Shown here piece by piece: positions 2,075 through 54,503 of a stretch of 64,000 bases of DNA (positions within the stretch are counted from its first letter, which is position 1; the number at the start of each line of letters is the position of its first letter). The DNA is taken from NCBI GenBank assembly GCA_026168455.1, contig CM047430.1, positions 23,206,735 through 23,270,734 on the forward strand. The letters run 5' to 3'. The notes beneath the pieces were generated by a model. That model was not told the DNA's origin, ran no database searches, and saw nothing but the letters and a program-made list of their open reading frames with translations. The translations under genes were made by a program, and so were the position numbers. This stretch comes from Theocolax elegans. Lineage: Eukaryota > Arthropoda > Insecta > Hymenoptera > Cerocephalidae.

Positions 2075-2078
2075 ATAC
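2075..2078. other. Left 4-bp target-site duplication (ATAC) of the large LTR insertion
   Basis: ATAC directly precedes the outer end of the left LTR (TGTCACGTCC, from 2079). The same ATAC follows the outer end of the right LTR at 54235-54238. Four to five bases is the usual duplication size for Ty3/Gypsy integration. A 4-bp match can occur by chance, so this counts only together with the LTR ends. Confidence 0.6.
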
Positions 2079-2766
2079 TGTCACGTCCAGACTTGTACTA
2101 ACTGCTATAAAAATATTACAAGAAGGCAAATGGTTAATAAACCATTCGCGTTCCTTTCGTTCTTGTTTGAGTAGGACTAGCCTTACGTCTCCGGGAGTAG
2201 CGTGCCAAGTTATTTTAAGAGTAGAGATGTAGGATATAATGTGGGATAATAAAATAATATATTTTTTTATTCGTATTGATCATGCATTATTTATTTAAAT
2301 TTCTTAATATAATTGTATAATGTCTTCTTTTTAAATGAACATATGTAACTAAATTCTTCCAGCTTTTTAATGGACAAAAACACACATAAAATTACAATAC
2401 TTTATAAACAGTTGCATAGAATTATTTAAGTTCAATAATAATTTTAATTTTGATTATATAAACAATTGCACGGCGATCACTTTAACAAATTATAGAATAA
2501 AATATACGTAATGCTATTTTATTACAAACATTACTAATTAATAATCGAGATAAGAATTATTATAAATAAATCCAGTTTAAATTAAAAATTGTTGCAGTTG
2601 AAAATGTGAATTATTGTCAATAAATTGCAATTCAAACAATAAATATTGTAGATAAAAAGCAATGCAAAGAAGAATTGTTATAAATAAATTACAGTTCTAA
2701 AAAATAATTATTGTAAAAGAAAAAGCGGTTGGTTCAGTAATCTATATTATATTAAAATTCATCCGT
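2079..2766 (-). repeat. 3' LTR of the minus-strand Gypsy element, truncated at its U3 side
   Basis: The sequence from TGTCACGTCC at 2079 matches 52712-53320 almost throughout, including the ATTACAAGAAGGCAAATGG block and the AT-rich stretch with repeated AATAAA-like signals. It carries about 60 extra bases near 2412-2473, bounded by short direct repeats (ATAAACARTTGCA), that the right copy lacks. Similarity fades at about 2745-2766. The roughly 900 bases that complete the LTR at the right end (53320-54234) are absent here and replaced by the array side. Confidence 0.7.
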
Positions 2767-2769
2767 TCT

Positions 2770-2829
2770 CCGGTGTCCAGCGGTGGTGTCCGGTGTCCCG
2801 CGGCAGTATCCGGTCTCCTGTTGTAAGAA
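2770..2829. repeat. GC-rich 20-bp tandem repeat (about 2.5-3 copies) at the array edge
   Basis: CCGGTGTCC starts at 2770 and 2790 and a CCGGTCTCC variant at 2810, giving a 20-bp period in otherwise AT-rich DNA. It sits exactly between the truncated LTR and the large array. The period is close to the array monomer of about 19.5 bp, but the sequence is different. Confidence 0.6.
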
Positions 2830-3269
2830 TTAAGAGTATGTATGGCGTGGAAGGGTTAACGCTGATATTTCGGGATAACTTCACTAATTACGGGATTTCC
2901 TGGATATTTCGGGAATTTTTGAGTTATTTCGGGATAACTCCACCAATTACGTGATTTTATAAATATATCACTAATTTCTTAGGTATGCGGGGATAAATCC
3001 ACCAATTTCAAGCTTTCCAGGATAAATCGGGATTTTCTGGGGTATTTCGGGATAAATTCACTAACTGAGGGATTTCCTGGACATTTCGGGAATTCCTGGA
3101 TGTTGCGGGATTTTCTGGGGTATTCCAGGATATCTCCACGAATTTCGGGATTTCCTGGATGTTTCGGAATTTTCTGGGATATTTCGGGATAAATTCATTA
3201 ACTGAGGGATTTCCTAGACATTTCGGGAATTTTGAGGTAATCCGGGATATCTCCACCCATTTCAGGATT

Positions 3270-6200
3270 TCCTGGATGTTTAGGGATTTTCTAAGGTATT
3301 TCGTGAAAAATTCACTAACTGAGGGATTTCCTGGACAATTCGGAAATTTTGGGGTATTTCGGGATATCTCCACCAATTTCGGGATTTCCTGGATGTTTTC
3401 GGAATATCTCCACCAATTTCGGGATTTCGTGGATGTTTCCGGATTTTCTGGGGTATTTCGGGATAAATTCACGAACCGAGGGATTTCCTGGACATTTTGA
3501 GATTTTCAGGTACTCCGGGATATCTCCACCAATTTCGGGATTTCCTCGATGTTTCAGGATTTCTTGAGGTATTTCGGGATATCTCCACCAATTTCGGGAT
3601 TTCTTGGATGTTTCGTGATTTTCTGGGGTTTTTCGGGATATCTCCTTCAATTTCGGAATTTTCTGAGGAATTCCGGGATATCTTCACGAACTTCGGGATT
3701 TCCTGAATGTTTCAGGATTTTCTGATGTATTTCGCGGTAAATTCACGAACTGAGGGATTTCCTGCACATTTTGAATATTTTGAGGTATTCCGGGATATCT
3801 CCAACCATTTTGGGATTTCCTGGATGTTTCAGGATTACTTGAGGTATTTCGAGATATCTCCACCAATTTCGGGTTTCCTGGACATTTCGGGAATTTTCAG
3901 GGATTTTGGGATATCTCCACCAATTTCGGAATTTCTTGGATGTTTCGTGATTTTCTGGGGTTTTTCGGGATATCTCCTCCAATTTCGGGATTTTCTGAGG
4001 AATTCCGGGATATCTTCACCAACTTCGGGATTTCCTGAATGTTTCAGGATTTTTTGATGTATTTCGTGATCAATTCACGAACTAGGGATTTCCTGCACAT
4101 TTTGGGAATTTTGAGGTATTCCGGATATCTCCACCCATTTCGGGATTTCCTGCATGTTTCAGGATTTCTTGAGGTATTTCGGGATATCTCCACTAATTTC
4201 GGGATTTCCTGGACATTTCGGGAATCTTGAGGGATTTTGGGATGTCTCCACCAATTTCGGGATGTCCTGGTTGCTTCGGGATTATATGGGTATTTCGTGA
4301 TAAATTCACTAAATGAGGGATTTCCTGGACTTTTCGGGAATTTTTAGGTATTCCGGTATATCTCCACCATTTTCGGTATTTCCTGAATGTTTCGAGATTT
4401 TCTGAGGTATTTCGGGATTTCCTGGATGTTTCGGGATTTTCTGGGATATTTCGGGATAAATTCAGTAACTGAGGGATTTCCTGGACATTTCGGGAACTTT
4501 GAGGTAGTTCGGGATATCTCCACCAATTTCGGGATTTCCTGGACATTTCGGGAATTTTGAGGGATTTTGGGATGTCTCCACCAATTTCGGGATTTTCTGA
4601 GGTATTCCGAGATATCTTCACCAATTTCGGGATTTCCTGAATGTTTCAGGATTTTCTGATGTATTTCGTGATAAATTCACGAACTAGGGATTTCCTGCAC
4701 ATTTTGGGAATTTTGAGGTATTTCGGGATATCTCCACCAATTTCGGGATTTCCTGAATGTTTAGGGATTACTTGAGGTATTTCGGGATATCTCCACCAAT
4801 TTCGGGATTTCCTGGACATTTCGGGAATTTTAAGGGATTTTGGGATGTCTCCACAAATTTCGGGTTTTCCTGAGGTATTCCGGGATACCTTCACCAATTT
4901 CGGGATTTCCTGAATGTTTCAGGATTTACTGATGTATTTCGCGATAAATTCACGAACTGACGGATTTCGTGCACATTTTGGGAATTTTGAGGTATTCCGG
5001 ATATCTCCACCCATTTCGGGATTTGCTGGATGTTTCAGGATTTTTTGAGGTATTTCGGGATATCTCCACCAATTTCGGGATTTCCTGGACATTTCGGGAA
5101 TTTTGAGGGATTTTGGGATGTCTCCACCAATTTCGGGATTTCCTGGTTGTTTCGGGATTATCTGGGGTATTTCGTGATATATTCACTAAATGAAGGATTT
5201 CCTGGACATTTCGGGAGTTTTGAGGTATTCCGGATATCTTCACCCATTTCGGGATTTCGTGGATGTTGCGGGATTTTCTGGGGTATTTCGGGATATCTCC
5301 ACCAATTTCGGGATTTCCTGGATGTTTCGGGATTTTCTGGGGTATTTCGGAACAAATTCACTAACTGAGGGATCTCCTGGACATTTCGGGAATTTTGAGG
5401 TATTCCGGGATATTTCCACCAATTTCGGTATTTCCTGGATGTTTAAGGATTTTCTGAGGTATTTCGGGATAAATTCACGAACTGAGGGATTTTCTGGACA
5501 TTTTGGGAATTTTGAGGTATTCCGGGATATCTCCACGAATTTCGGGACATCCTGGAAGTTTCGGTATTTTCTGGGATATTTCGGATAAATTCAGTAACTG
5601 AAGGATTTCCTGGATCTTTCGGGAACTTTGAGGTATTCCGGGATATTCCCACCAATTTGGGTATTTCCTGGATGTTTCGGGATTTCTTGAGGTATTTCGA
5701 GATATCTCCACCAATTTCGGGATTTCCTGGATGTTTCGGGATTTTCTGGGATATTTCGGGATAAATTCAGTAACTGAGGGATTTCCTGGATCTTTCGGGA
5801 ACTTTGAGGTATTCCGGGATATTCCCACCAATTTGGGTATTTCCTGGATGTTTCGGGATTTCTTGAGGTATTTAGGGATATCTCCACCAATTTCGGGATT
5901 TCCTGGTTGCTTCGGGATTGTCTGGGTATTTCGTGATAATTCACTAAATGAGGGATTTCCTGGACTTTTCGGGAATTTTGAGGTATTCCGTTATATCTCC
6001 ACCAATTTCGGGATTTCCTGGACATTTCGGGAATTTTAAGGGATTTTGGGATGTCTCCACCAATTTCGGGATTCTCCACCAAGTCCTGGTTGTTTCGGGA
6101 TTATCTGGTATATTTCGGGATGAATTCACAAACTGAGGGATTTCCTGGACATTTTAGGAATTTTGAGGTATTCCGGGATATATCCGCCATTTTAGGATTT

Positions 6201-8300
6201 CCTGGATGTTTCGGTATTTCTTGAGGTATTTCGGGATATCTCCACCAATTTCGGGATTTCCTGGATGTTTCGGGATTTTCTGGGATATTTCGGGATAAAT
6301 TCAGTAACTGAGGAATTTCCTGGACCTTTCGGAAACTTTGAGGTATTCCGGGATATTTCCACCAATTTCGGTATTTCCTGGATGTTTCGGGATTTCTTGA
6401 GGTATTTCGGGATATCTGCACCAATTTTGGGATTTCCTGGATGTTTCGGGATTTCCTGGATGTTTCGGGATTTTCTGGGATATTTCGGGATAAATTCAGT
6501 AACTGAGGGATTTCCTGGACATTTCGGGAATTTTGAGGTATTCCGGGATATTTCCACCAATTTCGGTATTTCCTGGATGTTTAAGGATTTTCTGAGGTAT
6601 TTCGGGATAAATTCACGAACTGAGGGATTTCCTGGACATTTTGGGAATTTTGAGGTATTCCGGGATATCTCCACGAATTTCAGGACATCCTGGATGTTTC
6701 GGGATTTCTTGAGGTATTTCGGGATATCTGCACCAATTTTGGGATTTCCTGGATGTTTCGGGATTTCCTGGATGTTTCGGGATTTTCTGGGATATTTCGG
6801 AATAAATTCACTAACTGAGGGATTTCCTGGACATTTCGGGAACTTTGAGGTATTCCGGGATATTTCCACCAATTTCGGTATTTCCTCGATGTTTAAGGAT
6901 TTTCTGAGGTATTTCGGGATAAATTCACGAACTGAGGGATTTCCTGGACATTTCGGGAATTTAGAGGGATTTTGGGATGTGTCCACCAATTTCGGGATGT
7001 CCTGGTTGTTTCGGAATTATCTGGGGTATATTGGGATAAATTCACTAACTGAGGGATTTCCTGGACATTTCGAAAATTTTGAGGTATTCCGGGATATCTC
7101 CATCATTTTCGGTATTTCCTGGATGTTTCGGAATTTCTTGAGGTATTTCGGCATATCTCCACCCATTTCGGGATTTCCTGGCTGTTTCAGGATTTCTTGA
7201 GGTATTTCGGGATATCTCCATCAATTTCGGGATTTCTTGGATGTTTCGGGATTTTCTGGGGTATTTTGGGATATCTCCACCAATTTCGGGATTTTCTGAG
7301 GAATTCCGGGATATCTTCACCAATTTCGGGGATTCCTGAATGTTTCAGGATTTTCTGATGTATTTCGCGATAAATTCACGAACTGAGGGATTTCTTGGAC
7401 ATTTCGGGGATTTTCAGGTATTCCGGGATATCTCCACGAATTTCGGGACATCCTGGAAGTTTCGGGATTTTCTGGGATATTTCGGGATAAATTCATTAAC
7501 TGAGGGATTTCCTGCACATTTTGGGAATTTTGAGGTTTTGCGGGATATCTCCACCCATTTCGGGATTTCCTGGATGTTTCAGGATTTCTTGAGGTATTTC
7601 GGGATATCTCCACCAATTTCGGGATTTCCTGGACATTTCGGGAATTTTGAGGGATTTTGGGATATCTCCACGAATTTCGGGACATCGTGGAAGTTTCGGT
7701 ATTTTCTGGGATATTTCGGGATAAATTCAGTAACTGAGGGATTTCCTGGATCTTTCGGGAACTTTGAGGTATTCCGGGATATTCCCACCAATTTGGGTAT
7801 TTCCTGGATGTTTCGGGATTTCTTGAGGTATTTCGGGATATCTTCACCAATTTCGGGATTTCCTGGATGTTTCGGGATTTTCTGGGATATTTCGGGATAA
7901 ATTCAGTAACTGAGGGATTTCCTGGACCTTTCGGGAACTTTGAGGTATTCCGGGATATTTCCACCAATTTGGGTATTTCCTGGATGTTTCGGGAGTTCTT
8001 GTGGTAGTTCGGGATATCCCCCTAATTTTGGGGATTTCCTGGCTGTTTCAGAATTTCTTGAGGTATTTCGGGATATCTCCATCAATTTCGGGATTTCTTG
8101 GATGTTTCGGGATTTCTTGAGGTATTTCGGGATATCTCCACCAATTTCGGGATTTCCTGGAAGTTTCGGTATTTTCTGGGATATTTCGGGATAAATTCAG
8201 TAACAGAGGGATTTCCTGGATCTTTTCGGGAACTTTGAGGTATTCCGGGATATCTCCAACCATTTTGGGATTTCCTGGATGTTTCAGGATTTCTTGAGGT
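3270..8300. repeat. Array block duplicated at 10450-15500 (offset about 7.18-7.19 kb)
   Basis: Distinctive variants recur in the same order at both places. Examples are TTTTCGGAATATCTCCACC near 3400 and 10575, ATTCTCCACCAAGTCC near 6072 and 13265, and GGTAGTTCGGGATATCCCCC near 8000 and 15196. The offset drifts from about 7176 to 7192 through small indels. The duplication covers most of 5 kb and is younger than the 117-bp amplification. Confidence 0.8.
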
Positions 8301-8566
8301 ATTTCGGGATATCTCCACCAATTTCGGGTTTCCTGGACATTTCGGGAATTCCTGGATGTTGCGGGATTTTCTGGGGTATTTCGGGATAAATTCACTAACT
8401 GAGGGATTTCCTGGACATTTCGGGAATTTTGAGGTATTTCGGGATATCTCCACCAATTTCGGGATTTCCTGGACATTTCGGGAATTTTCAGGGATTTTGG
8501 GATATCTCCACCAATTTCGGGATTTTCTGGGGTATTTCGGGATATCTCCACCAATTTCGGGATTTC

Positions 8567-10000
8567 CTGGATGTTTCGGAATTTTCTGGGATATTTCGTG
8601 AAAAATTCACTAACTGAGGGATTTCCTGGACAATTCGGAAATTTTGGGGTATTTCGGGATATCTCCACCAATTTCGGGATTTCCTGGATGTTTTCGGAAT
8701 ATCTCCACCAATTTCGGGATTTCGTGGATGTTTCCGGATTTTCTGGGGTATTTCGGGATAAATTCACGAACCGAGGGATTTCCTGGACATTTTGAGATTT
8801 TCAGGTACTCCGGGATATCTCCACCAATTTCGGGATTTCCTCGATGTTTCAGGATTTCTTGAGGTATTTCGGGATATCTCCACCAATTTCGGGATTTCTT
8901 GGATGTTTCGTGATTTTCTGGGGTTTTTCGGGATATCTCCTTCAATTTCGGAATTTTCTGAGGAATTCCGGGATATCTTCACGAACTTCGGGATTTCCTG
9001 AATGTTTCAGGATTTTCTGATGTATTTCGCGGTAAATTCACGAACTGAGGGATTTCCTGCACATTTTGAATATTTTGAGGTATTCCGGGATATCTCCAAC
9101 CATTTTGGGATTTCCTGGATGTTTCAGGATTACTTGAGGTATTTCGAGATATCTCCACCAATTTCGGGTTTCCTGGACATTTCGGGAATTTTCAGGGATT
9201 TTGGGATATCTCCACCAATTTCGGAATTTCTTGGATGTTTCGTGATTTTCTGGGGTTTTTCGGGATATCTCCTCCAATTTCGGGATTTTCTGAGGAATTC
9301 CGGGATATCTTCACCAACTTCGGGATTTCCTGAATGTTTCAGGATTTTTGATGTATTTCGTGATCAATTCACGAACTAGGGATTTCCTGCACATTTTGGG
9401 AATTTTGAGGTATTCCGGATATCTCCACCCATTTCGGGATTTCCTGCATGTTTCAGGATTTCTTGAGGTATTTCGGGATATCTCCACTAATTTCGGGATT
9501 TCCTGGACATTTCGGGAATCTTGAGGGATTTTGGGATGTCTCCACCAATTTCGGGATGTCCTGGTTGCTTCGGGATTATATGGGTATTTCGTGATAAATT
9601 CACTAAATGAGGGATTTCCTGCACTTTTCGGGAATTTTTAGGTATTCCGGTATATCTCCACCATTTTCGGTATTTCCTGAATGTTTCGAGATTTTCTGAG
9701 GTATTTCGGGATTTCCTGGATGTTTCGGGATTTTCTGGGATATTTCGGGATAAATTCAGTAACTGAGGGATTTCCTGGACATTTCGGGAACTTTGAGGTA
9801 GTTCGGGATATCTCCACCAATATCGGGATTTCCTGGACATTTCGGGAATTTTGAGGGATTTTGGGATGTCTCCACCAATTTCGGGATTTTCTGAGGTATT
9901 CCGAGATATCTTCACCAATTTCGGGATTTCCTGAATGTTTCAGGATTTTCTGATGTATTTCGTGATAAATTCACGAACTAGGGATTTCCTGCACATTTTG
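8567..10000. repeat. Third copy of the 3270-4700 array segment (offset about 5,295 bp)
   Basis: The TTTCGTGAAAAATTCAC marker, the TTTTCGGAATATC variant and the following segments recur in identical order at 3300-4700, 8590-10000 and 10470-11880. The junction at about 8567 splices two different array contexts, a trace of unequal exchange. Confidence 0.75.
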
Positions 10001-13000
10001 GGAATTTTGAGGTATTCCGGGATATCTCCACCCATTTCGGGATTTCCTGGATGTTTCAGGATTTCTTGAGGTATTTCGGGATATCACCACCAATTTCGGG
10101 ATTTCCTGGACATTTCGGGAATTTTGAGGGATTTTGGGATGTCTCCACCAATTTCGGGATTTCCTGGTTCGTTTCGAGGATTATCTTGAGGTAGTTCGTG
10201 ATATATGCACTAAATTGAGGATTTCCTGATTTACTGATGTATTTCGCGATAAATTCACGAACTGACGGATTTCGTGCACATTTTGGGAATTTTGAGGTAT
10301 TCCGGATATCTTCACCCATTTCGGGATTTGCTGGATGTTTCAGGATTTTTTGAGGTATTTCGGGATATCTCCACCAATTTCGGGATTTCCTGGACATTTC
10401 GGGAATTTTGAGGGATTTTGGGATATCTCCACCCATTTCAGGATTTCCTGGATGTTTAGGGATTTTCTAAGGTATTTCGTGAAAAATTCACTAACTGAGG
10501 GATTTCCTGGACAATTCGGAAATTTTGGGGTATTTCGGGATATCTCCACCAATTTCGGGATTTCCTGGATGTTTTCGGAATATCTCCACCAATTTCGGGA
10601 TTTCGTGGATGTTTCCGGATTTTCTGGGGTATTTCGGGATAAATTCACGAACCGAGGGATTTCCTGGACATTTTGAGATTTTCAGGTACTCCGGGATATC
10701 TCCACCAATTTCGGGATTTCCTCGATGTTTCCGGATTTCTGAGGTTATTTCGGGATATCTCCACCAATTTCGGGATTTCTTGGATGTTTCGTGATTTTCT
10801 GGGGTTTTTTCGGGATATCTCCTTTCAATTTCGGAATTTTCTGAGGAATTCCGGGATATCTTCACGAACTTCGGGATTTCCTGAATGTTTCAGGATTTTC
10901 TGATGTATTTCGCGGTAAATCACGAACTGAGGGATTTCCTGCACATTTTGAATATTTTGAGGTATTCCGGGATATCTCAAACCATTTTGGGATTTCCTGG
11001 ATGTTTCAGGATTACTTGAGGTATTTCGAGATATCTCCACCAATTTCGGGTTTCCTGGACATTTCGGGAATTTTCAGGGATTTTGGGATAATCTCCACCA
11101 ATTCGGAATTTCTTGGATGTTTCGTGATTTCTGGGGTTTTTCGGGATATCTCCTCCAATTCGGGATTTTCTGAGGAATTCCGGGATATCTTCACCAACTT
11201 CGGGATTTCCTGAATGTTTCAGGATTTTTTGATGTATTTCGTGATCAATTCACGAACTAGGGATTTCCTGCACATTTTGGGAATTTTGAGGTATTCCGGA
11301 TATCTCCACCCATTTCGGGATTTCCTGCATGTTTCAGGATTTCTTGAGGTATTTCGGGATATCTCCACTAATTTCGGGATTTCCTGGACATTTCGGGAAT
11401 CTTGAGGGATTTTGGGATGTCTCCACCAATTTCGGGATGTCCTGGTTGCTTCGGGATTATATGGGTATTTCGTGATAAATTCACTAAATGAGGGATTTCC
11501 TGGACTTTTCGGGAATTTTTAGGTATTCCGGTTATATCTCCACCATTTTCGGTATTTCTGAATGTTTCGAGATTTTCTGAGGTATTTCGGGATATCTCCA
11601 CCAATTTCGGGATTTCCTGGATGTTTCGGGATTTTCTGGGATATTTCGGGATAAATTCAGTAACTGAGGGATTTCCTGGACATTTCGGGAACTTTGAGGT
11701 AGTTCGGGATATCTACACCAATTTCGGGATTTCCTGGACATTTCGGGAATTTTGAGGGATTTTGGGATGTCTCCACCAATTTCGGGATTTTCTGAGGTAT
11801 TCCGAGATATCTTCACCAATTTCGGGATTTCCTGAATGTTTCAGGATTTTCTGATGTATTTCGTGATAAATTCACGAACTAGGGATTTCCTGCACATTTT
11901 GGGAATTTTGAGGTATTTCGGGATATCTCCACCAATTTCGGGATTTCCTGAATGTTTAGGGATTACTTGAGGTATTTCGGGATATCTCCACCAATTTCGG
12001 GATTTCCTGGACATTTCGGGAATTTTGAGGGATTTTGGGATGTCTCCACAAATTTCGGGTTTTCCTGAGGTATTCCGGGATACCTTCACCAATTTCAGGA
12101 TTTCCTGAATGTTTCAGGATTTACTGATGTATTTCGCGATAAATTCACGAACTGACGGATTTCGTGCACATTTTGGGAATTTTGAGGTATTCCGGATATC
12201 TCCACCCATTTCGGGATTTGCTGGATGTTTCAGGATTTTTTGAGGTATTTCGGATATCTCCACCAATTTCGGGATTTCCTGGACATTTCGGGAATTTGAG
12301 GGATTTTGGGATGTCTCCACCAATTTCGGGATTTCCTGGTTGTTTCGGGATTATCTGGGGTATTTCGTGATATATTCACTAAATGAGGATTTCATGGACA
12401 TTTCGGGAGTTTTGAGGTATTCCGGATATCTTCACCCATTTCGGGATTTCGTGGATGTTGCGGGATTTTCTGGGGTATTTCGGGATATATCCACCAATTT
12501 CGGGATTTCCTGGATGTTTCGGGATTTTCTGGGGTATTTCGGAACAAATTCACTAACTGAGGGATCTCCTGGACATTTCGGGAATTTTGAGGTATTCCGG
12601 GATATTTCCACCAATTTCGGTATTTCCTGGATGTTTAAGGATTTTCTGAGGTATTTCGGGATAAATTCACGAACTGAGGGATTTTCTGGACATTTTGGGA
12701 ATTTTGAGGTATTCCGGGATATCTCCACGAATTTCGGGACATCCTGGAAGTTTCGGTATTTTCTGGGATATTTCGGATAAATTCAGTAACTGAAGGATTT
12801 CCTGGATCTTTCGGGAACTTTGAGGTATTCCGGGATATTCCCACCAATTTGGGTATTTCCTGGATGTTTCGGGATTTCTTGAGGTATTTCGAGATATCTC
12901 CACCAATTTCGGGATTTCCTGGATGTTTCGGGATTTTCTGGGATATTTCGGGATAAATTCAGTAACTGAGGGATTTCCTGGATCTTTCGGGAACTTTGAG

Positions 13001-27400: not shown

Positions 27401-27600
27401 ATTTCCAGGATGTTTCGAGATTTTCTGGGGTTTTTCGGGATATCTCCACGAATTTCGGACATCCTGGAAGTTTCGGGATTTTCTGGATATTTTGGGGATA
27501 AATTCACTAACTGAGGGATTTCCGGACATTTTAGGAACTTTTGAGGTACTCCGGGATATTTCACGAACTTCGGTATTCCTGGATGTTTAAGGTTTTTTTG
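15500..27600. repeat. Indel-rich part of the array
   Basis: Units here resemble those to the left and right but carry many one-base deletions. GGGATTCCTGG stands for GGGATTTCCTGG, GGATAATTCAC for GGATAAATTCAC, and CACCATTTCGG for CACCAATTTCGG. Segments around 15.6-19.8 kb and 25.7-27.5 kb are worst. Open frames are correspondingly short. Either this is an old, decayed section or it is poorly polished long-read consensus; the loss of single bases in short homopolymers favours the latter at least in part. Confidence 0.65.
23185..24960. repeat. Array block repeated at about 35345-37110 (offset about 12,159 bp)
   Basis: Rare variants such as CAATTTCTGGATGGTTGTTTC (near 23475 and 35630), TGAATGTTACAGG and GGGATGATTCCACC occur in the same order in both places. 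The left copy has extra single-base losses compared with the right copy. Confidence 0.75.
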
Positions 27601-44000: not shown

Positions 44001-45459
44001 CTCCACCAATTTCGGGATTTCCTGGATGTTTCTGGATAAATTCACTAACTGAGGGATTTTTGGACATTTCCGCAATTTCGAGGTATTCCGGGATATCTCC
44101 ACCATTTTCGGTATTTCCTGGATGTTTCGGAATTTTCTGGGGTATTCCGTGATAAATCCACCAATTTCGGGATTTCCTGGACGTTTCCGGATTATCTACG
44201 GTATTTCGGGATAACTCCACCAATTTCGGGATTTCCTGGATGTTTCTGGATAAATTCACTAACTGAGGGATTTTTGGACATTTCCGCAATTTTGAGGTAT
44301 TCCGGGATATCTCCACCAATTTCAGGATTTCCTGGATGTTTCGGGATTTTCTGACGTATTCCGGGATAAATTCACTAACTGGGCGATTTCCTGGACATTT
44401 CGGGAATTTTGAGGTATTCCGGGATATCTCTACCAATTTCGGGAGTTCCTGGATGTTTCGGGATTTTCTGGGATATTTCGGGATAAATACACCAATTTCG
44501 GGATTTCCTGGATGTTTCCGGATTATCTACGGTATTTCGGGATAACTCCACCAATTTCGGGATTTCCTGGATGTTTCGGGATTTTCTGGGATATTTCGCG
44601 ATAAATCCACCAATTTCGGGTTTTCCTGGACGTTTCCGGATTATCTACGGTATTTCGGGATAACTCCACCAATTTCGGGATTTCCTGGATGTTTCTGGAT
44701 AAATTCACTAACTGAGGGATTTTTGGACATTTCCGCAATTTTGAGGTATTCCGGGATATCTCCACCAATTTCAGGATTTCCTGGATGTTTCGGGATTTTC
44801 TGACGTATTCCGGGATAAATTCACTAACTGGGCGATTTCCTGGACATTTCGGGAAATTTGAGGTATTCCGGGATATCTCTACCAATTTCGGGAGTTCCTG
44901 CATGTTTCGGGATTTTCTGGGATATTTCGGGATAAATACACCAATTTCGGGATTTCCTGGATGTTTCCGGATTATCTACGGTATTTCGGGATAACTCCAT
45001 CATTTTCGGGATTTCCTGGATGTTTCGGGATAAATTCACTAACTGAGGGATTTTTGGACATTTCCGGAATTTTGAGGTATTCCGGGATAACTCCACCAAT
45101 TGCGGGATTTCCTTGATGTTTAGGGATTTACTGACATATTCCGGGATAAAATCACTAATTGAGCAATTTCCTGGACATTTCGGGAATTTTGAGGTATTCC
45201 GGGATATCTCCACCAATTTCAGGATTTCCTGGATGTTTCGGGCTTTTCTGACGTATTCCGGGATAAATTCACTAATTGAGCGATTTCCTGGACATTTCGG
45301 GAATTTTGAGGTATTCCGGGATATCTCTACCAATTTCAGGATTTCCTGGACATTTCGGGAATTTTGAGGTATTCCGGGATATCTCCACCAATTTCGGGAT
45401 TTCCTGGATGTTTTTGGGATTTTCTGGGGTATTTCGTGATAATTTCACTAACTGAGAGA

Positions 45460-46250
45460 TTTCCTGGATATTTCGGGTGTTTTGAGGTATGCCGGGATAT
45501 CTCCACCTATTTCGGGATTTCCTGGTTGTTTCGGAATTTTCTGGTCTATTTCGTGATAAATTCACTAAATATGGGATTCCCTGGACATTTTGGGAATTTT
45601 GAGGTTATTCCGGGATATCTCCACCAATTTCGGGATTTCCTGGATGTTTCGGGATTATCTGGGTATTTCGGGATAAATTCACTAATTGAGCGATTTCCTG
45701 GACATTTCGGGATGTTCTGACGTATTCCGGGATAAAATTCACTAATTGAGCGATTTCCTGGACATTTCGGGAATTTTAAGGTATTCCGGGATATCTCTAC
45801 CAATTTCAGGATTTCCTGGACATTTCGGGAATTTTGAGGTATTCCGGGAATCTCCACCAATCGGGTGTTTTGAGGTATGCCGGGATATCTCCACCTATTT
45901 CGGGATTTCCTGGTTGTTTCGGAATTTTCTGGTCTATTTCGTGATAAATTCACTAAATATGGGATTCCCTGGACATTTTGGGAATTTTGAGGTATTCCGG
46001 GATATCTCCACCAATTTCGGGATTTCCTGGATGTTTCGGGATTATCTGGGGTATTTCGGGATAAATTCACTAATTGAGCGATTTCCTGGACATTTCGGGA
46101 TGTTCTGACGTATTCCGGGATAAATTCACTAATTGAGCGATTTCCTGGACATTTCGGGAATTTTAAGGTATTCCGGGATATCTCTACCAATTTCAGGATT
46201 TCCTGGACATTTCGGGAATTTTGAGGTATTCCGGGATATCTCCACCAATA
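45460..46250. repeat. Local duplication of about 390-400 bp near the right edge of the array
   Basis: A segment with GGGTGTTTTGAGGTATGCC, TGGTCTATTTCGTG and AAATATGGGATTCCC occurs at about 45475-45770 and again at about 45863-46155. Small indels separate the copies. Confidence 0.7.
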
Positions 46251-46464
46251 TCGGTATTTCCTGGATGTTTCGGCATTATCTGTGGTATTTCGGGATATCT
46301 CCATCAATTTCGGGATTTTCTGGGTGTTTCGGGATTGTCTGAGATATTCCGGAATATTTCCACCAGTTTCGAGATATTCTGGGGTATTTCAGGATAAATC
46401 CACCAATTTCGGGATTTCCTGGATGTTTTGGGATGTTCTGACGTATTTCCGCAATAAATACTAA

Positions 46465-47556
46465 TTTGTATTTATTCCCTACTTTTAATAACCAGACATT
46501 ATCCCCTGCCTGAAATTCTTGATTATTTGCTTTCCTGTCGTAATAGAATTTCGACCTACGTTTAGAGGCTATCAATTTTTCTCGGGCGTTTCTCTGTATT
46601 TCATTTAAACGTTGTCGTAAATTTGTAATGGAATCATCATACGTTGGAACTCGTCCTCGTGGGTCTAAAGGTTCGTTTGATGGTAGTCGCGCTTTTCGTG
46701 CAAAAATAATTTCAAAGGGTATGTAAATATGACCCTTATGTACCGACGTATTATACGAAAACGCTTAACAGAGTTGGACTGAGGGTGATAAGCCGTGGTT
46801 TTAACTTGTTTAATCTTAAAAATTTTCGCTACTTCTCTTATCAGACTACTTAAAAACGAGGTACCTTGGTAAAGATAATTAACATGTATGGGTATCGCCA
46901 TACAATATTTTGAAAGGTTACATTGAACGGTCAATATATTACTGTTATTATTTCGAGATCTGGGGAATGGATTCCATAGCCGAGTACGGAGTATCTGTTA
47001 TTATCGTACGTTGTTTAGCTTTAATACGAACCAATTTCTTTAGTTGGCAAGTTAAACAATGTCTAATGTAGTTTTGCACGTCATTCTTAATATCAGGCCA
47101 ATAGAAACGTTGTTTTATACGTTTATAGGTTTTTGTTACCCCGTTATGCCCTGCACAAGCAGACTCGTGCATTTCGCGAATAATATTTTCCCTATTACTT
47201 TCTTCCACACATTTTATGAATCCTAAACAAATATTTATTTTTACACTAATATTTCGTAGAGTTATACTTATTTGTTTCAAAACTTCATTCCATGAAACGT
47301 TTTCAATAAAATCGCTCTTCGCGATACTTATTGAACGTAATTTTTCTTTTAATATAATATTTTTCAAATTTAATAGATTCGTTCTTAGATTATTAATCAT
47401 TTCTGAAGTACTCAGTCGCTCTTCGTCACGTAAAACCATAGCAAAATGCATTTTTCCGTTTTTGTTATAGATTCTTATTTCTCTTGTATTTAAATTGGAA
47501 AAATGAGGTAATAATAATTTTGAAGCCAAATTTCTGGATCCTTCGTCTAAAGGCAT
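46465..47556 (-). pseudogene. pol: Gypsy integrase (HHCC zinc finger, core remnant, C-terminal domain)
   Basis: The 202-codon open segment 47556-46948 holds the integrase zinc-binding motif, with H130, H137, C167 and C170 (MHESACAGHNG ... CLTCQ). The next segment (46934-46665) has core pieces, QGTSFLSSL and TTAYHPQSNS, but the first catalytic Asp region and part of the core are missing. A further stretch (about 46730-46465) carries a PFEIIFARKARLPS-like motif and the C-terminal YYDR...GDNVWLL signature. Frames shift between segments. Similarity ends at GNKYK (46465), and the frame then runs straight into the satellite array. The integrase is inactive; it would insert the element's cDNA into host DNA. 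Confidence 0.85.
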
Positions 47557-48000
47557 TCCGGTTGTAATTATGAAAGTTGTTCTTTAACTTCAATGAATTT
47601 CTTTGGTTCATCATTTGGTACTTCGAGAACATCTTTTTCTTCCCAGGACTCATCAAATTCGTTGTTATAATTACCTCCCTCTATGGGGTGTGATCTTTTG
47701 TCTGAGTTTACTATCGTTTCAATTTCTTCGGGGGCTTCTTGTATTATAGGAAGGTTTCTGACTGGTTCTTTTGGTATATTTAATTTGTTGGGTCGTTTTG
47801 CTCTCTTTTCATTGTAGTTTGACCGTGTTATTTTTCCTGCGCTACTGCGTGTTTCCATAGAATGATTTTTAATAACATAAACGGGTTCTTCTATTGGATT
47901 TTTTGATAAGGCGTCAACACAACGTTACTTTTACCGGCTTTGCATACGATGTCAAAGTCGTATGCATTCAGTTTTATTCTCCATCTACTAATGCTTCCCT
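47557..48000 (-). pseudogene. pol: RNase H end and polar linker between RNase H and integrase
   Basis: The minus strand just left of 48000 reads SRWRIKLNAYDFDIV and a KAGKSNVV-like connection toward a DALSKNP-type motif, the usual end of Gypsy RNase H. This is followed by a 96-codon polar, acidic segment (47858-47568, METRSS...). The sequence jumps directly from the early RNase H at 48001 to this tail, so the middle of the RNase H domain has been deleted. Frameshifts separate the tail from the linker. The linker has no recognisable fold. Confidence 0.65.
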
Positions 48001-48690
48001 TCAGTAAGTATCATATTTTTGCTCGGCTTTGTTTAATACTCGCGAAACATAAGCAACCGGTAGGTCGGTCCCCAACTCTCCTTGTGGTAAAATTGCTCCT
48101 ATTGCTGTACTGCTAGCGTCACAAGTCACTATAAATGGTTTATTAAAATCTGCGATTTGTAGTATTGGCTGTTTTGTAGTATTTAGCTGTGATGTATAAT
48201 TGGAATTTGACGGTTTAACTATGTCTCCTTTAATCATTTCTTTTAATTGATTATCAAATTCGCTTTTGAGAGCATGAGGAAATCTATATGGCTTAGCTGT
48301 GATTGGTATGTCGTCGACAGTCGGTATCTTATGTTCTATAGCATTTGTCACGCCTAATTTTTCTCCTTTTAGACAGAAACAATCCGGATATTTATCAATT
48401 AAATTTTCTATAGATTGCCTTTGTGCCTCGTCCATTTTATCAGAATGCAAGGCTTCTTTTAACCGTTCATTACGATTAAGTGTACTTGTATCCTCCGTTA
48501 TGTTAAGTATCCTTGCTTCAGATCGATTGTTAGAAATGTCGTGTATGTCGACTTCTTCACTTTCATAACTATAAAAATTATTAATAAAAGGTTTATTTGA
48601 ATAAACCAAATAACTGTTATTCATTTCGTTTTCGTGTATGGCTTCAACAAATTCACTTCGTAAATTTTCGTTTTTAACTCGTTCATTCAA
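48001..48690 (-). pseudogene. pol: Gypsy reverse transcriptase/RNase H with the RT core deleted
   Basis: The 229-codon frame shows the start of RT (HKIPTVDDIPITAKPYRFP, residues about 120-138, and IVKPSNSNYTSQL, about 157-169). It then goes directly into TTKQPILQ..DF and the RNase H start FIVTCDASSTAIGAIL (about 187-201). The whole palm with the catalytic YxDD box is absent, an in-frame loss at about 48183. The frame ends at 48001 (KAEQKYDTY) where another deletion lies. The product could not reverse-transcribe. Before residue 100 the sequence is a polar spacer of unknown role. Family assignment is firm; activity is excluded. Confidence 0.85.
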
Positions 48691-48903
48691 TAAAAAATCG
48701 CTAGGGTCCTCATCCTGTTCATTGTCTTCCTGTATGTTTATTAAATTCTCATTATTTACCTCATTTTACGTTTCTTCAGTTCCCTGTTTGTTTACCCATA
48801 ATATTTCAGTTCGGGATAATATCTAACTTTTCCCCCGACATAACCAATTCTTTGTTATTCAATTTATAATCATAACTAACAATTTTTATCACGAGGATCG
48901 CAT

Positions 48904-49395
48904 TTATTGACAATTCATTTTTTTGTCAACAAAATCTTCCTTATTTTCACGAGGTCCGCATTTATCGCCCTCCTCGATTTCATAATCCATTTGTACTTGA
49001 CAATTATTAACTGTCTTATTCAATAAATTTTCTTCATAAATTATTTCATTTTCAATATCACTCTTCAGGTCAACTTCATTTTCATAATTAGTACAAGATG
49101 GGCTCTCAGCCACCCTATCGAACACTGATGCTTCAATAATACCATAATTTTCAGGAATTTCATCAAATTTTTCTTTAATACATGGCTCAGTCACATCAGA
49201 TACCCGTGGCTGCGCTTTTTCATTAATTATTTGTAATTGTTCTTCCTTCATTAATCCATAACAATTTTCACTTGCTTTACTTGAACAATTCTTTAGATCC
49301 GACTCCTCGTCGATTTGATGTATAATCGTCATACTCTTGTTCTTTTTCACTCTGATTGTATAGGTCTTTGTCGTTGCCATTTTGATTTCTTTCAT
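48904..49395 (-). CDS. Acidic spacer ORF between protease and RT (function unknown)
   Basis: This is a 163-codon open frame, rich in Glu, Asn, Asp and Lys, with no motif I can name. It lies between the protease and the RT start in the polyprotein order, where some Gypsy elements carry a variable spacer. It is bounded by frameshifts or stops on both sides. It is probably a remnant of the same polyprotein, not an independent gene. Confidence 0.4.
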   Translation of the reverse strand: MKEIKMATTKTYTIRVKKNKSMTIIHQIDEESDLKNCSSKASENCYGLMKEEQLQIINEKAQPRVSDVTEPCIKEKFDEIPENYGIIEASVFDRVAESPSCTNYENEVDLKSDIENEIIYEENLLNKTVNNCQVQMDYEIEEGDKCGPRENKEDFVDKKMNCQ

Positions 49396-49599
49396 TTATT
49401 TGTTTTGCTCGTAGATTTTATACGATTTGTTTGTGTCAAATTTTATAAACGTTTCATCATTTTCATGCAATTGAAAGTTACTTGACGTTTCTGAGTTACT
49501 ATCGGTATATTTATAAAATCTTGAATTTTTCATGTTCGTATAATCATTGTTTTCCCTTGGTTTTGTCATATATCGTATTGATTTTCGATCATTATTTCG

Positions 49600-50000
49600 A
49601 TTTCCTCCATTATATAAATCGATTCATCCGTTTGCGTATTATTTACATTTTCAAAGGGAAGGATTAATCCATTAAATTCTAAATACTGTTCCAAATAATT
49701 GACTTTTGCATCGTTTCTACAAAAAAAAATCGGTGCCTAAGATTCCATCTTGTTGTATAGGGAACGAATCATGTACTAAATTGAGTTCCACGTGAGATCC
49801 TTCGAAATCTATTCTATTTTACCACAAGTAGTTGATGAATGGTCAGTTATGCCTTTTAACAATATAATATCATTTTCGTCAATTTTCACGCGGGAGTCTA
49901 CCTCTGACTCTTTAATTAGACTTACCGATGCTCCTGTATCAAGCAAGAATTTTAACGGACGTCTTAACTGACCGGTATCGAGGATTTCGACCAAGGCTGA
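49600..50000 (-). pseudogene. Retropepsin-type aspartic protease remnant of the minus-strand Gypsy element
   Basis: The frame 49994-49809 contains the active-site motif LLDTGASVSLIK (catalytic Asp codon about 49938-49940) and then stops. The next frame carries a DGILGTDFF-like motif around 49720-49750, which corresponds to the second hydrophobic block of retropepsins. A run of A residues (T9 or so on the plus strand near 49725) marks one of the shifts. The protease would have processed the polyprotein. The break between the two halves makes this copy non-functional. Confidence 0.75.
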
Positions 50001-50004
50001 ACTT

Positions 50005-51300
50005 TGTTGGCTTAAATTTATTTTCGCAATGCAGAGGAGACGTTTGAACGGGTTTCCGCACTCGAAGTAGAGGGAATTTGATTCGTAGCCTCTCTCTCGA
50101 CCCTCCCTGAAGAGAGAGTGTTGGTGTTTCCCTGATTATGATTTCTTTCTCTTATTTCTCTTTGTAACTTATAACAATCGCGCTTTATGTAGCCGGGTTT
50201 TCCGCAATGGAAACAAGTAACTGATGATCTTATATCATTATTCGATTCGTTATTAATATATCGTGATTCTTGCGAAGTTGAATTAACTAACTCGCACACA
50301 CCGCCAGTCCCGGAATTATTTCCCCGATCTTTGTTAAATTGCTGCGATGAAATTTATTATTATTATTACGAACGAAGGAATCATTTTATCTTTATCTCTA
50401 TTAGGTAAAATTCCGTCTGATTTTGATACTCGTTCCAACCACCAAATTGTAAATTTGGCCTATCATAATTACGACTGTTATCCGAGCGACTTTGTGAGCT
50501 ATAAGAACTGTTTATGGGATTGCGTCGGTTGTTATTATCGGAAAATCTTTCTGTAAAATTTCGTACTAATTTGAAACAATTTATGGCTCCATGACCAGTT
50601 TTAGAACAATATTGACATACAATCGGAGAGTTATTCAAAATATAGTTTACTTTACACGTTTCTCGAGTTGAAGGAGAACGAGCCTCTCGACTCGGCGTCT
50701 CCTCGTCTAAGACGCTACAAGCGAACTCGCGCTCCACTACGAGCGCTTGTTCACGAGCCTGTTTTATAGAAATTGGAGTCCCTAAACGCGCACGAATTTC
50801 CCAACGAAGCCCTTTTAAAAATAATTTTAAACAATCTCGCTTTAGTTCAATCATGAAATGATCCGCTATCGCAACTCGTCCCTCTCTGTCGGACGATTTG
50901 ACTATTTCATTTTTTATTTCATGTAACCGATCAAATAAGCAACGACTGTCTCATTGTTTTTCTGTTTTAATTTAGCAAGGTTTCCCGTCCACTCGTAATA
51001 TGTTTTTATTGATCCGAAAGTGTTTTCGAAAAAATCGGGTATCTCTTTGATAGAATAAAATTTTCTCCGCGCGCACAATTTAAAGCTACCCCATATAAAC
51101 GCATTCAAATAAGTTTTGTTAATTTCTTTCGTACTCGACGGTAAAATTTCTTTTGCTTCATTGCATCCGTCCAAAAATTGCGATAAATTTATGTTATGAC
51201 CGTTAAACCGCGGTATCAAATCTAAAGCGTCCTTTAGCGATAAACCTCGAATTTGCGTCATTGTTTGATTTTTTTTTTTTTTACTCTCTTTGCTCATCAC
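50005..51300 (-). pseudogene. gag: Gag core and nucleocapsid of the minus-strand Gypsy element
   Basis: From ATG at 51300 the frame shows a Gypsy Gag core (LKDALDLIPRFNGH..., compare the plus-strand element). It is broken by a shift near 50935 and continues through 50854-50381 with a CCHC knuckle, CQYCSKTGHGAINC, then after another shift through 50299-50018. The second knuckle, CFHCGKPGYIKRDC, has Tyr where His is expected. Ser/Asn/Arg-rich linkers surround the knuckles, as is usual in nucleocapsid. Gag would assemble the particle and bind element RNA. At least two frameshifts are present. Confidence 0.8.
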
Positions 51301-51884
51301 CCCGTATAATCATTAGACGGGTTTTTACAGGGACACCCCTACCACCTATGTGTGGGGGTGAAAACATTCCAACTTTCCCTTCCCGGTCCCCACCGTCTCG
51401 CATTCGCCCGGGGTTATGCCCGTGAGGAAGGGCGAACCTTGTAGGAAAACCTTCCCCGAGACGGACGGTGTATTGAAACATTCTGTTAAATGTTCAGGTC
51501 ACCTTTCGTAGGCCCAAACACTGAAACCGAATGTTCCACACCTTCCGCTCACGGTTTGAAGTGTGGAAAAACACCTAACCGATCCCGAAAACCGCACAAG
51601 AATGGTGTCACGCATCCAAGTGCCAACCGAACTCAGTGCTGCTTAACTTTCGTGATCGGCCGAGGTGCGTCTCCGCCACTCCGCCACCGTGTCATAGTTT
51701 TATTATTAATTTGTTTTTTAACTTCACTCCTATCTAATTTTTTTGGTTTTGTTCAGTGTTTGCTATTAATTCGTCTTAATTAATTTTATTAAATAATTCG
51801 TCTTTAATTCTTAGAAGAGTTTGCTTGTTCGGGTGATCTTATAATTCATTGATTATCGAAGGGAATTGTAAAATCTGTCGCGCC
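51301..51884. other. Unexplained GC-richer segment between Gag N-terminal and Gag core pieces
   Basis: This 584-bp stretch is GC-richer than its surroundings and interrupts the expected continuity between the N-terminal Gag piece (to 51885) and the Gag core start (51300). Overlapping open frames exist on both strands (51481-51281 minus, 51490-51783 plus), but neither shows a motif I know. It may be an inserted fragment or a leader; no flanking duplication was found. Confidence 0.4.
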
Positions 51885-52610
51885 TTATATTAGTTTTTCA
51901 TCGAATACTTCCGCCGTGTTGGTCACTAATGCCTTTGCTTCCTCAATATCTTTTTCGATCGGTGCGGAAAAAATATTAAATGCGCCTTTAATCTTATTTA
52001 TGATACCTTGAAAAAATGTCCCTTTTTTTTACACTTTTTTGTAAACTTTCTATAATTTTAGGTTCTTCGAGATAAGAATCTAACAACTCTTTTTTCACTT
52101 CAGTTGCGAGCCGCTTTCTTACCGAGCTTATAACGTTATCCGGTGTTAAAATCAATGGTTCATATGGACGATTAATTGGGGTTGGCGTACTAAAATTTAT
52201 AGAATTGTTCGCGATAAGTTCTTTTTGTTTCTCTTACTTCAAAACAGCGGGTTTTAAGCTAAAATGTTTTACGCGCGTGGGAGTAATTATCGTGTCTTCT
52301 TGCTCGTTTTCACTAACTTCAGAAATAGAAAGATCGGTTGGAAAAAAGGGTCTCTATATTCAAAATCGCGATGTATTTTTATAGATAATGAAATATTTTC
52401 TGCACTTTTTTCTAGTCTATCCTTTAAATAATTTATTTCTTTTGTCAAATTTTGCACTGTTTCCCTAGGCGTTTTAGTTAAATCGAGACTATTGAGAGTC
52501 TGAACTTTTTCTTTGTATAAATTTAATAACGTATCATTCACAGAAAATTCTAAACTCGTGTTTCTTTGTTTATTTACATAACAATCAGTATTTTTAGGTG
52601 AACCTGACAT
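51885..52610 (-). pseudogene. gag: N-terminal Gag segment of the minus-strand Gypsy element
   Basis: ATG at 52610 opens a 107-codon frame with a predicted coiled coil (LTKEINYLKDRLEKS). After frameshifts, coding-like sequence continues to a TAA at 51885. It includes a RPYEPL... and KKELLDSYLEEP pattern resembling RPFTPL... and KRDLLNEYLNAEA in the plus-strand element at 59160-59295. That shared pattern is why I call it Gag rather than an unrelated ORF. It starts about 100 bases inside the 5' LTR, which fits a short leader. Confidence 0.6.
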
Positions 52611-52711
52611 TTTTTTCTAAACACATTATTCCTTTAATCTCTTTATTTTTCTCTCAAAAATGTGAGTTTCCCGGTCGATGCATCAAATTTATTATAATAA
52701 TTAATACAATC

Positions 52712-54234
52712 TGTCACGTCCAGACTTGTACCAACTACTATAAAAATATTACAAGAAGGCAAATGGTTAATAAACCATTCGCGTTCCTTTCGCTCTTGTT
52801 TGACTAGGGCTAGCCTTACGTCTCCGGGAGTAGCGAGCGAAGTTATTTTGAGAGTTGAGATGTAGGATATAATGTGGGATAATAAAATAATATATTTTTT
52901 TATTCGTATTAATCATGCATTATTTATTTAAATTTCTTAATATAATTGTATAATGTCTTCTTTTTAAATGAACATATGTAACTAAATTCTTCCAGCTTTT
53001 TAATGGATAAAAACACATAAAATTACAATACTTTATAAACAATTGCACGGCGAACACGTTAACAAATTATAGAATAAAGTATACGTAATGTTATTTTATT
53101 ACAAATATTACTAATTAATAATCGAGATAAGAATTGTTATAAATAAATGCAGTTTTAATTGAAAATTATTGCAGTTGAAAATATGAATTATTGTCAATAA
53201 ATTGTAATTCAAACAATAAATATTGAAGATAAAATGCAATGCAAAGAAGAATTGTTATAAATAAATTGCAGTTCCAAATAATAATTATTGTAAAAGAAAA
53301 AACGTTTGGTTCAATAATTGAAATAATATAAAATATCAGGTTTGCCTTTACGAAAATTACAAAGCGTATAAATAGCCGAAAAGTATATACCTTAAGTACC
53401 TACATATATATATGGTAAGGAACGAAGGTCTGCCTCGAACGTAAATAGCGGTGTCAAGGGGCTTGGTGATGTCCCGCTAGACCTGCGGGCGCCGACGTTA
53501 GATGCATATGCGTTCGGAGTTCGATGATTGCCAGATGTCGAAGTCATAGTTTCTTGACTAAGGCTCGTAGATACCAACGATGCATCTCGATTCCCGAATA
53601 CAAGATCTCTCTTGACTTTGAATGCGTATTTTTTATAAGTCCGAGTAGCAGAGCTTCGCCCTCGGATAAAAATTAAAGGGTAGACTAGCAGAGCTTCGCC
53701 TTACGAAAGCTTTATACAAAAAACTAGAAGTGGCTGTGTCTGTTCTGAGTCATCTTTATATACCCTAAAAATCTGTGCATCTGTTCTTGTCTTACGCTTT
53801 GCTTTAGATGAAAATTGCGTAATTAGTTCTCGATTTTTCTGTGCTTGCACCCGATTGGACCGTTAGATGTGCGTGATCAAAAAATTATCGAATCCCCTGC
53901 ATTTTCTGTATCGCTTCGCATTGATTTTATAGTGCAGTATTCAAAAACTCTTGCGCAACCCTTCGTTTCGATCTCACTATCGGCAATCCCGCTTATATGT
54001 GTATTGGCTTTGAATAATATCTTCAACTCTACTTATCAGTCTCTTCTTCATTTGAAACGCTCGTCAATTAATCTGTCCCTTAGCTCTATAAATTAGGCTT
54101 TATATTACTGCATTTACTTAGAACCGCTCTTTATCAACCTTATTTCGTTTGTCTTTTATGCCGTAATTTTATTTTATACTGCGCAGTACTTATTTTACGA
54201 AAAATAATAATATAATTTTCGTCGGGACGCGACA
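52712..54234 (-). repeat. 5' LTR of the minus-strand Gypsy element (1,523 bp)
   Basis: In element orientation it begins TGTCGCGTCCCGACG (outer end 54234) and ends CTGGACGTGACA (inner end 52712), so the ends are inverted versions of TGTCRCGTCC. The inner 600 bases match the left LTR copy. The outer part (53320-54234) is unique to this copy and holds a repeated AGCAGAGCTTCGCC (53648 and 53687). A TATAAA-like box in element orientation lies near 54170-54180. No TGG-type primer-binding site is obvious next to 52711. Confidence 0.65.
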
Positions 54235-54238
54235 ATAC
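54235..54238. other. Right 4-bp target-site duplication (ATAC)
   Basis: It directly follows the LTR outer end (CGCGACA) and is identical to 2075-2078. Confidence 0.6.
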
Positions 54239-54377: not shown

Positions 54378-54503
54378 CAACTGAGCTATTTTATTGTTGC
54401 TGTCATTATATTAAATTTTGGTTATAAAGAACAATTGAAACATGTATCACAATTTATAACCAAAATTGAACATAATGACAAAAATAACAAAATAGCTCAG
54501 TTG
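54378..54503. repeat. Foldback hairpin with 51-bp arms
   Basis: The arms 54378-54428 and 54453-54503 are inverted copies with about six mismatches in 51 positions, around a 24-base loop. The right arm ends inside TAGCTCAGTTGG, the A-box of the tRNA-like sequence that follows, so the left arm carries an inverted A-box copy. This could be a foldback repeat or a structured transcript; no gene is evident. Confidence 0.7.

Follow-up and report, generated by a model that had tools for sequence, protein, structure and literature searches.

A 43.6-kb satellite array framed by a Gypsy retrotransposon in Theocolax elegans: probable nested insertion of a satellite-bearing, Helitron-like transposon

A satellite array of about 43.6 kb on a chromosome of Theocolax elegans is framed by the remains of a Gypsy LTR retrotransposon, and three steps very probably explain the locus, namely insertion of the Gypsy element, nested insertion of a second transposon that carried the satellite, and a deletion. 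The window, i.e., the whole stretch of DNA analysed, comprises 64,000 nt (GCA_026168455.1, contig CM047430.1:23,206,735-23,270,734, forward strand). The first-pass annotation had placed an array of this size inside a Gypsy copy, which is borne out by its position (2867-46463) between the pol 3' end and the 3' LTR fragment. The further claim that the array was seeded by, or grew from, the retroelement does not hold: judged from its terminus and from copies elsewhere in the genome, the satellite forms the central part of a dispersed transposon, which starts within the LTR with its 5' terminus at 2741. This leaves a nested insertion that is well resolved, and a family of transposons whose internal satellites are very large. 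The features are as follows.

2075..2078, no strand: target duplication, left copy, ATAC (4 bp)
2079..2740, minus strand: Gypsy 3' LTR fragment, U5 side; U3 side broken by the second transposon
2741..2866, plus strand: 5' end of the satellite-bearing, putatively Helitron-like transposon, with TCTATATTATATTAAAATTC terminus and GTCC-rich leader
2867..46463, plus strand: satellite array, internal repeats of the second transposon, ~43.6 kb; 3' side truncated
46461..46463, no strand: deletion-like array-pol junction, placed by eye; a few bases are compatible with either side
46461..52711, minus strand: internal region of the Gypsy element, degraded; Pfam identifies pieces of integrase and RNase H, RT for the most part not found
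46948..47556, minus strand: ORF piece, integrase zinc-binding (PF17921, Pfam)
48001..48690, minus strand: ORF piece matching RNase H (PF17919); no RT palm in the expected place before it
51291..51690, minus strand: SINE-like insertion with A-rich tail
52712..54234, minus strand: Gypsy 5' LTR, 1523 bp, with both termini
54235..54238, no strand: target duplication, right copy, ATAC (4 bp)

The outer LTR termini read TGTCACG at 2079 and CGACA at 54234 and each is flanked by ATAC, as described in the first-pass annotation. The host thus has the TG...CA ends and 4-bp target duplication of an LTR retrotransposon. A search for other copies of the LTR had been proposed in that annotation as a check; among 18 such loci the U5 terminus motif (at most 2 substitutions) is found in 16 and the U3 motif in 3. 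Both termini were found in two other copies. L017 is flanked by a 4-bp duplication (ATTG); L005 shows no duplication, and one of its sides may be internal. The two LTRs of the window are homologous, with 586 of 679 positions identical and 56 gapped when 2078-2756 is aligned to 52711-53333. Cut at 2740 they diverge at 5.1% of 606 sites, a figure given as a distance and not as an age.

It is conceivable that the frame was instead assembled from two separate Gypsy copies, one bearing the satellite transposon, that were joined by deletion. The deletion-like junction where pol meets the array would fit such an origin, as would a 54-bp segment that is present in the left LTR and missing in the right, as in 7 of 18 other rows. 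In our reading the 54-bp difference reflects repeated loss of a segment flanked by 13-bp direct repeats; because of these repeats, and because copies with and without the segment occur scattered, it was set aside as proof of two unrelated elements. Against two copies stand the matching ATAC flanks, with a chance frequency of 0.006 for a 4-bp match between non-array places in the window, and the tree of 33 LTR rows, where the two window LTRs are the best pair (support 94/88). The 13 rows added last weakened this pairing, from 5 private shared changes at 20 rows (98/94) to 2 at 33 rows. In the four shared-column comparisons made, the left LTR was always nearest to the right LTR. The right LTR is equally near to L043 and to the left LTR (4.5% of 507 shared sites), and differs from the partial copy L021 at 2.8% of 322 sites, compared to 3.4% from the left LTR on the same columns. 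The AU test did not reject trees that join the left LTR to L042 or the right LTR to L043 (p-AU 0.09 each), which leaves some room for two copies, and it rejected a tree joining the right LTR to L021 (p-AU 0.03). Pairing of the window LTRs is therefore favoured, not proven, and an origin from two copies is unlikely. Judged by the ATAC duplication and the paired LTRs, it is most likely that one Gypsy insertion frames the array.

The internal region has the domain order of Gypsy elements, RNase H (PF17919/PF17917) before integrase (PF17921) and both after gag and protease, the gag zinc knuckles and the protease being recognised by eye and not by Pfam. No Pfam match to the RT domain was obtained in the ORF piece preceding RNase H, and this region spans 0.86 kb in the window as against 7.6 kb in one relative. 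The SINE-like insertion is missing from the corresponding place in relatives L011, L016, and L019. Positions 51291-51690 also have a 5S-like look, by eye only, since scans of the window with Rfam (gathering threshold) and ARAGORN gave no matches.

The inner edge of the 3' LTR fragment is where the second transposon begins. The pol region on one side of the array and the 3' LTR fragment on the other, as first annotated, were confirmed as its neighbours; the fragment stops at 2740 rather than 2770, the stretch 2741-2866 belongs to the other transposon, and pol homology starts at 46461. LTR homology ends at 2740/2741 and TCTATATTATATTAAAATTC starts at 2741. The left-LTR search gave 42 rows other than the query itself, of which 18 end at 2741 and one at 2740; none extends beyond 2758. 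The LTR reads through the insertion site without the transposon at 17 of 20 other loci, and 16 of these 17 uninterrupted copies show AA/TTG, with the slash at the site. Genome-wide there are 251 exact TCTATATTATATTAAAATTC termini, preceded by A in 220, T in 29, and G in 2 cases. As in Helitrons, the terminus starts with 5'-TC and lies after A and before T. The leader adjoins the array in all four other array loci with fetched edges, while their outer flanks differ, and the transposon 5' part was found in all 39 other scored candidates (200-246 of 246 bases, 90-97% identity; 40 of 2472 candidates scored). Complete copies align over the initial 600 bp counted from the terminus, L057 for example at 87%. 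Since the terminus is followed by this satellite elsewhere in the genome, amid other flanks, and since most LTR copies are uninterrupted, a Helitron-like insertion into the Gypsy 3' LTR is the probable origin of this edge.

The array has units of ~19.5, 39, 59, 117, and 176 bp and extends from 2866 to 46352 among the TRF matches listed, out of 230; its right edge at 46463 is a reading by eye. The array has one orientation; no opposite-strand copies were detected at E 1e-10. One open frame of the array had no protein match, and a search of viral contigs with one satellite 30-mer and the integrase returned nothing related. Many interior blocks are 99-100% alike and could reflect assembly errors. 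That the length or placement of the whole array is an assembly artefact is nevertheless very unlikely, as both array edges join specific, diverged sequence and a second array of comparable inferred size is present on C1 (see below).

The position of the array between pol and the 3' LTR would also fit growth from short tandem repeats (TTCGGGAT) of the Gypsy family itself, a route described for plant Ogre elements (PMC7004042). The first-pass annotation had proposed to look for relatives with such repeats between integrase and the 3' LTR. Relative L024 keeps the pol end and has no such repeats past the pol stop, none of the 39 other integrase copies scored (40 of 1291 candidates scored) continues beyond the breakpoint into the array, and the array possesses its own transposon terminus. 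An origin of the satellite from the Gypsy 3' region was consequently rejected and is hardly credible.

On the far side, the second transposon is incomplete in the window. A tail of ~430 bp is found in L049, L051, L057, L059, L061, L062, and L067, and in pieces in L047, L056, and L060; it is absent from the window, and array locus L053 likewise has no tail beside its array. The transposon class is Helitron-like, an assignment that is not proven, and rolling-circle mobility is inferred from the architecture, chiefly the 5' terminus. A related array, L031, adjoins a PIF1-type helicase fragment (PF21530, E 3e-15). It is a real possibility, if not a probable one, that the unit carrying the satellite belongs to another non-autonomous type, ending in a TA microsatellite, rather than to the rolling-circle transposons. 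In several copies the ~430-bp tail runs into TCTATATATAT and then stops or continues into another leader, and when the window leader was compared with the right flank of L056, no 11-bp subterminal inverted match (at most 1 mismatch) was found. The predominance of A before the TC start speaks for a Helitron-like unit instead, as do the GTCC-rich (GTCY) leader, the central repeats and the hairpin located after the array, which resemble oyster HINE elements (PMC7492417). In tandem copies of L055 a hairpin-CTAG end stands directly before the leader, where the first 4 terminus bases are absent; the other fetched copies have a different, common tail.

On another large contig (C1:54167716-54207428) a copy of this transposon that has both leader and tail surrounds an array of an inferred ~39 kb. 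In the stretches fetched around it no piece of Gypsy was found, and large arrays therefore do not depend on a Gypsy host. From these two arrays, whose lengths were taken from copies picked by similarity, it is tempting to speculate that members of the family bear satellites of tens of kb as their core and may also move them, a proposal we would at present sooner doubt than accept.

The nested insertion may be ordered as follows. First, a Gypsy element would have inserted and duplicated ATAC, as the termini, the duplication and the LTR pairing suggest. Second, a Helitron-like transposon with a central array of ~59-bp units inserted into the 3' LTR with its TC end between A2740 and T2741, as shown by the terminus seen in other surroundings and the LTR copies that have no insert. 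Third, a deletion would have brought the inner part of the array against pol at 46461, with loss of the transposon tail, the remaining LTR, the 3' UTR and the pol end; it is proposed because parts are missing on both sides of the junction. Array growth and turnover may have proceeded by segmental duplication and unequal exchange, given the 99-100% duplicates. An ordered history can here be given for a large satellite, since three things are readable: the insertion of the Gypsy element, the LTR site in its uninterrupted form, and the terminus of the transposon. This better-resolved history replaces that of a retroelement turning into a satellite, and what had been taken for a clear intermediate can be imitated by nested insertion and a single deletion. 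Together with the C1 copy, the window makes it testable whether arrays carried by transposons enlarge at their new site or arrive there at full length. If the family does move satellites of tens of kb, near-mature satellites would be delivered to new chromosomal sites in one step.

Central repeats of DINE-TR1 Helitrons give rise to satellites in Drosophila, and the present locus is similar, as that family is generally described, in that central repeats of an insect Helitron may be the satellite source; nesting in a Gypsy LTR is a feature of this locus. In Lathyrus, satellites derived from Ogre elements likewise occupy the interval from pol to the 3' LTR in a Ty3/Gypsy element; their short repeats are part of the retroelement family itself (PMC7004042), whereas the Gypsy copies examined here have none. 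The foldback element Tetris of Drosophila virilis is likewise a DNA transposon with internal tandem repeats expanded into satellite arrays (PMC4079207); its repeats sit inside its terminal inverted repeats, of which none were noticed in the present transposon. In oyster, dispersed Helitron/Helentron elements (Cg_HINE) contain satellite-like central arrays (PMC7492417), and the Cg170/HindIII satellite has intermediate arrays with Helitron parts on a single side (PMC12628747). Both resemble the transposon described here in the central array, the GTCC-type stretch before it and the palindrome after it, and transposon parts kept on one side of the array are also seen in the window. Unlike in HINE, the terminus here lies after A and not at TT, and the 11-bp comparison of leader and L056 right flank gave no subterminal inverted repeat. 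The arrays also differ from those of oyster in size, 43.6 kb in the window and an inferred ~39 kb in the copy with leader and tail.

On its sequence, the segment 2741-46463 represents one copy of a dispersed transposon with the satellite as its core, because its leader and terminus recur at other loci, the flanks there differ, and its first 600 bases align with complete copies. The layout is as follows:

G000:C6:23206735-23270734, the window, in a genome of 658 Mb
About 2867-46463, satellite array in one orientation, right edge set by eye
54234-52712, minus strand, Gypsy 5' LTR, right of the array
2740-2079, left LTR, U5 side, left of the array

A search with the left LTR and the next bases as query (40 of 2546 candidates scored) gave 42 non-self rows, of which 18 end at 2741; no other row matches beyond 2758. 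The stretch 2740-2985 is matched over 200-246 bases, at 90-97%, by all 39 other scored candidates (40 of 2472 scored). The array search (7 of 2986 candidates scored) gave six matches outside the window, four of them fetched with both edges; at all four, the 110 bases beside the window array (2757-2866) recur next to the array, equally oriented and 76-93% alike, and the flanks outside the terminus TCTATATTATATTAAAATTC are unlike one another. The first-pass annotation had suggested that the array grew within, or replaced, the 3' part of one retroelement copy; this recurrence of leader and array with differing flanks speaks against an origin from the retroelement. The exact terminus is found in the genome 220 times after A and 31 times after another base (29 T, 2 G), with no matches in backward controls, and the 26-mer CCACCAATTTCGGGATTTCCTGGATG has 1104 genomic occurrences, 53 of them in the window. 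Over the 600 bases that begin at the terminus, the window agrees at 81-87% with the complete copies L055, L057, L059, L060, and L061 (L-numbers are fetched loci). The place of insertion is uninterrupted in 17 of 20 LTR loci (L001-L003 and L005-L021, the element's own 5' LTR included), where it reads AA/TTG in 16 and AA/TCG in one; L007, L010 and L017 gave no match to the search pattern, and the window reads AA/TCTATATT at the same site.

The TC start and the A before it are Helitron-type features, and the GTCY stretch, the central repeats and the hairpin after the array are Helitron/HINE-like; a possible point against this class is that no subterminal inverted repeat (11 bp, one mismatch allowed) was found linking the window leader to the right flank of L056. 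In L055 the hairpin-CTAG end abuts the following tandem copy at its leader, from which the first four terminus bases are absent. Tails fetched from other copies are unlike the L055 tail, several of them leading into a TA stretch, and this too may speak against a Helitron. L055 and C5:33205719-33216608 show five leaders head to tail about 2.6-2.9 kb apart, and each of the two leaders in the fetched L055 stretch is abutted by a hairpin-CTAG end. At L031:895-1741 a diverged 847-bp array of the window satellite abuts a PIF1-type helicase fragment, about 650 bp from another LTR copy; this proximity of helicase and array may be a coincidence.

In other copies the array is followed by a tail of a hairpin and about 430 bp (L049, L051, L057, L059, L061, L062, L067), present in pieces in L047, L056, and L060. 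No transposon tail was found in the window or beside the array of L053. The window array meets pol at 46461. It had been proposed that the array grew from the Gypsy element's own 3' repeats; against this, none of the 39 other scored integrase copies matches the query beyond that junction (40 of 1291 candidates scored), and in a relative on contig C2 pol runs on past the equivalent point to a stop (by eye), with no such satellite repeats after it. One deletion would account for the loss of transposon tail and pol end together.

Right of the array lies a degraded minus-strand LTR element, in which the 5' LTR is followed by gag and protease (by eye) and by RNase H and integrase (Pfam); Pfam gave no RT match in the piece preceding RNase H. 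Its leader/gag region carries a SINE-like insertion with an A-rich tail (51291-51690; related copies in L017, L033, and L060), without Rfam match. Elsewhere in the window are an open frame resembling the C-terminus of a family B DNA polymerase (41-724; Polinton-like by eye, without Pfam match), a second retroelement (60730-62789) whose frames look like gag (by eye) and protease (PF13975 below cut-off), and inverted-repeat stretches at 54378-54503 and 57115-57488, perhaps small foldback or MITE-like insertions.

That a single Gypsy insertion frames the array, as the first-pass annotation suggested, is likelier than two, with residual doubt remaining: both outer termini are present, ATAC stands at each flank and the window LTRs pair in trees, although some other LTR pairings are not rejected. 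Of 18 other LTR loci, 16 have the U5 terminus motif and three the U3 motif. Two copies besides the window's keep both termini, L017 with a 4-bp duplication and L005 with none, and the chance frequency of a random 4-bp match, taken over non-array places of the window, is 0.006. Among 20 LTR rows the window pair had support of 98/94 and shared five changes absent from other rows; after addition of 13 rows (12 of those 42 non-self left-LTR rows and one partial L021 copy) these values were 94/88 and two. The two LTRs differ by 5.1% over 606 sites, and in shared columns the left LTR has the right one as its nearest neighbour in four of four comparisons (L021, L042, L043, L002). The right LTR, however, is nearer to L021 (2.8%) than to the left LTR (3.4%; 322 sites), and its distance to L043 equals that to the left LTR (4.5% of 507 sites). 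The tree joining right LTR and L021 was rejected (p-AU 0.03), but those joining left LTR and L042 or right LTR and L043 were not (p-AU 0.09 each). The left LTR carries 54 bp that the window 5' LTR lacks, a segment lying between 13-bp direct repeats ATAAACAATTGCA; among 18 other LTR rows, seven lack exactly this segment and three lack part of it.

Array lengths in copies fetched elsewhere are 0.33 (L056), 0.39 (L058), 0.56 (L059), 0.60 (L062), 0.74 (L061, twice), 1.07 (L060), 2.0 (L057), and 2.4 kb (L055), and array-query matches span 2.3-8.6 kb on C338 and at C6:13.46, C6:11.97, C5:12.08, and C4:38.85 Mb. At C1:35.24 Mb the array is at least about 12 kb if continuous (26-mer positions, with leader at one end and an all-array stretch at the other). 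A further array of this transposon, C1:54168120-54207304, has leader on one side and tail on the other and lies in different surroundings (whole locus C1:54167716-54207428, L063-L067). Sampling covered three stretches of 500 bases and the two edges, with 26-mer positions listed as far as 54195522, and from these we infer that it is continuous over about 39 kb. Its tail need not be the transposon's true end, because a further leader-like piece comes after it. No Gypsy piece was found within about 1.1 kb past this tail and 0.27 kb past the leader; a large array size does not require a Gypsy host.

Satellites usually show interior turnover and older edges, and the window array resembles this pattern, the edge signal being weak. 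The unit of about 59 bp is built of subunits of about 19-20 bp (autocorrelation peaks at 117, 59, 58, 20, and 39). Of the interior 400-base blocks, many but not all find partners at 99-100%, at offsets such as 7192, 5295, 8647, 4425, and 12159. The best partners of the rightmost three blocks reach about 90%, those of the second block 95%, and those of the first 70%, but this block includes 107 bases of leader. The leftmost 118 bases are 86% identical to a monomer of the diverged L031 array on C6, against 82% to the window majority monomer; near the right end 46036-46153 gives 86% versus 81%, and in other right-edge blocks the L031 monomer fits equally or not better.

Among the titles and abstract openings searched, none describes an array this large inside a Helitron-like copy that is itself nested within an LTR. 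Plant Retand elements and soybean Gmr9 commonly have tandem repeats between pol and the 3' LTR (PMC11963269, PMC3305785), and Lathyrus satellites derive from Ogre 3' repeats (PMC7004042). Satellite-like arrays carried by Helitron/Helentron elements are described in oysters (PMC7492417), and a review describes intermediate arrays in which a single side keeps Helitron parts (PMC12628747).
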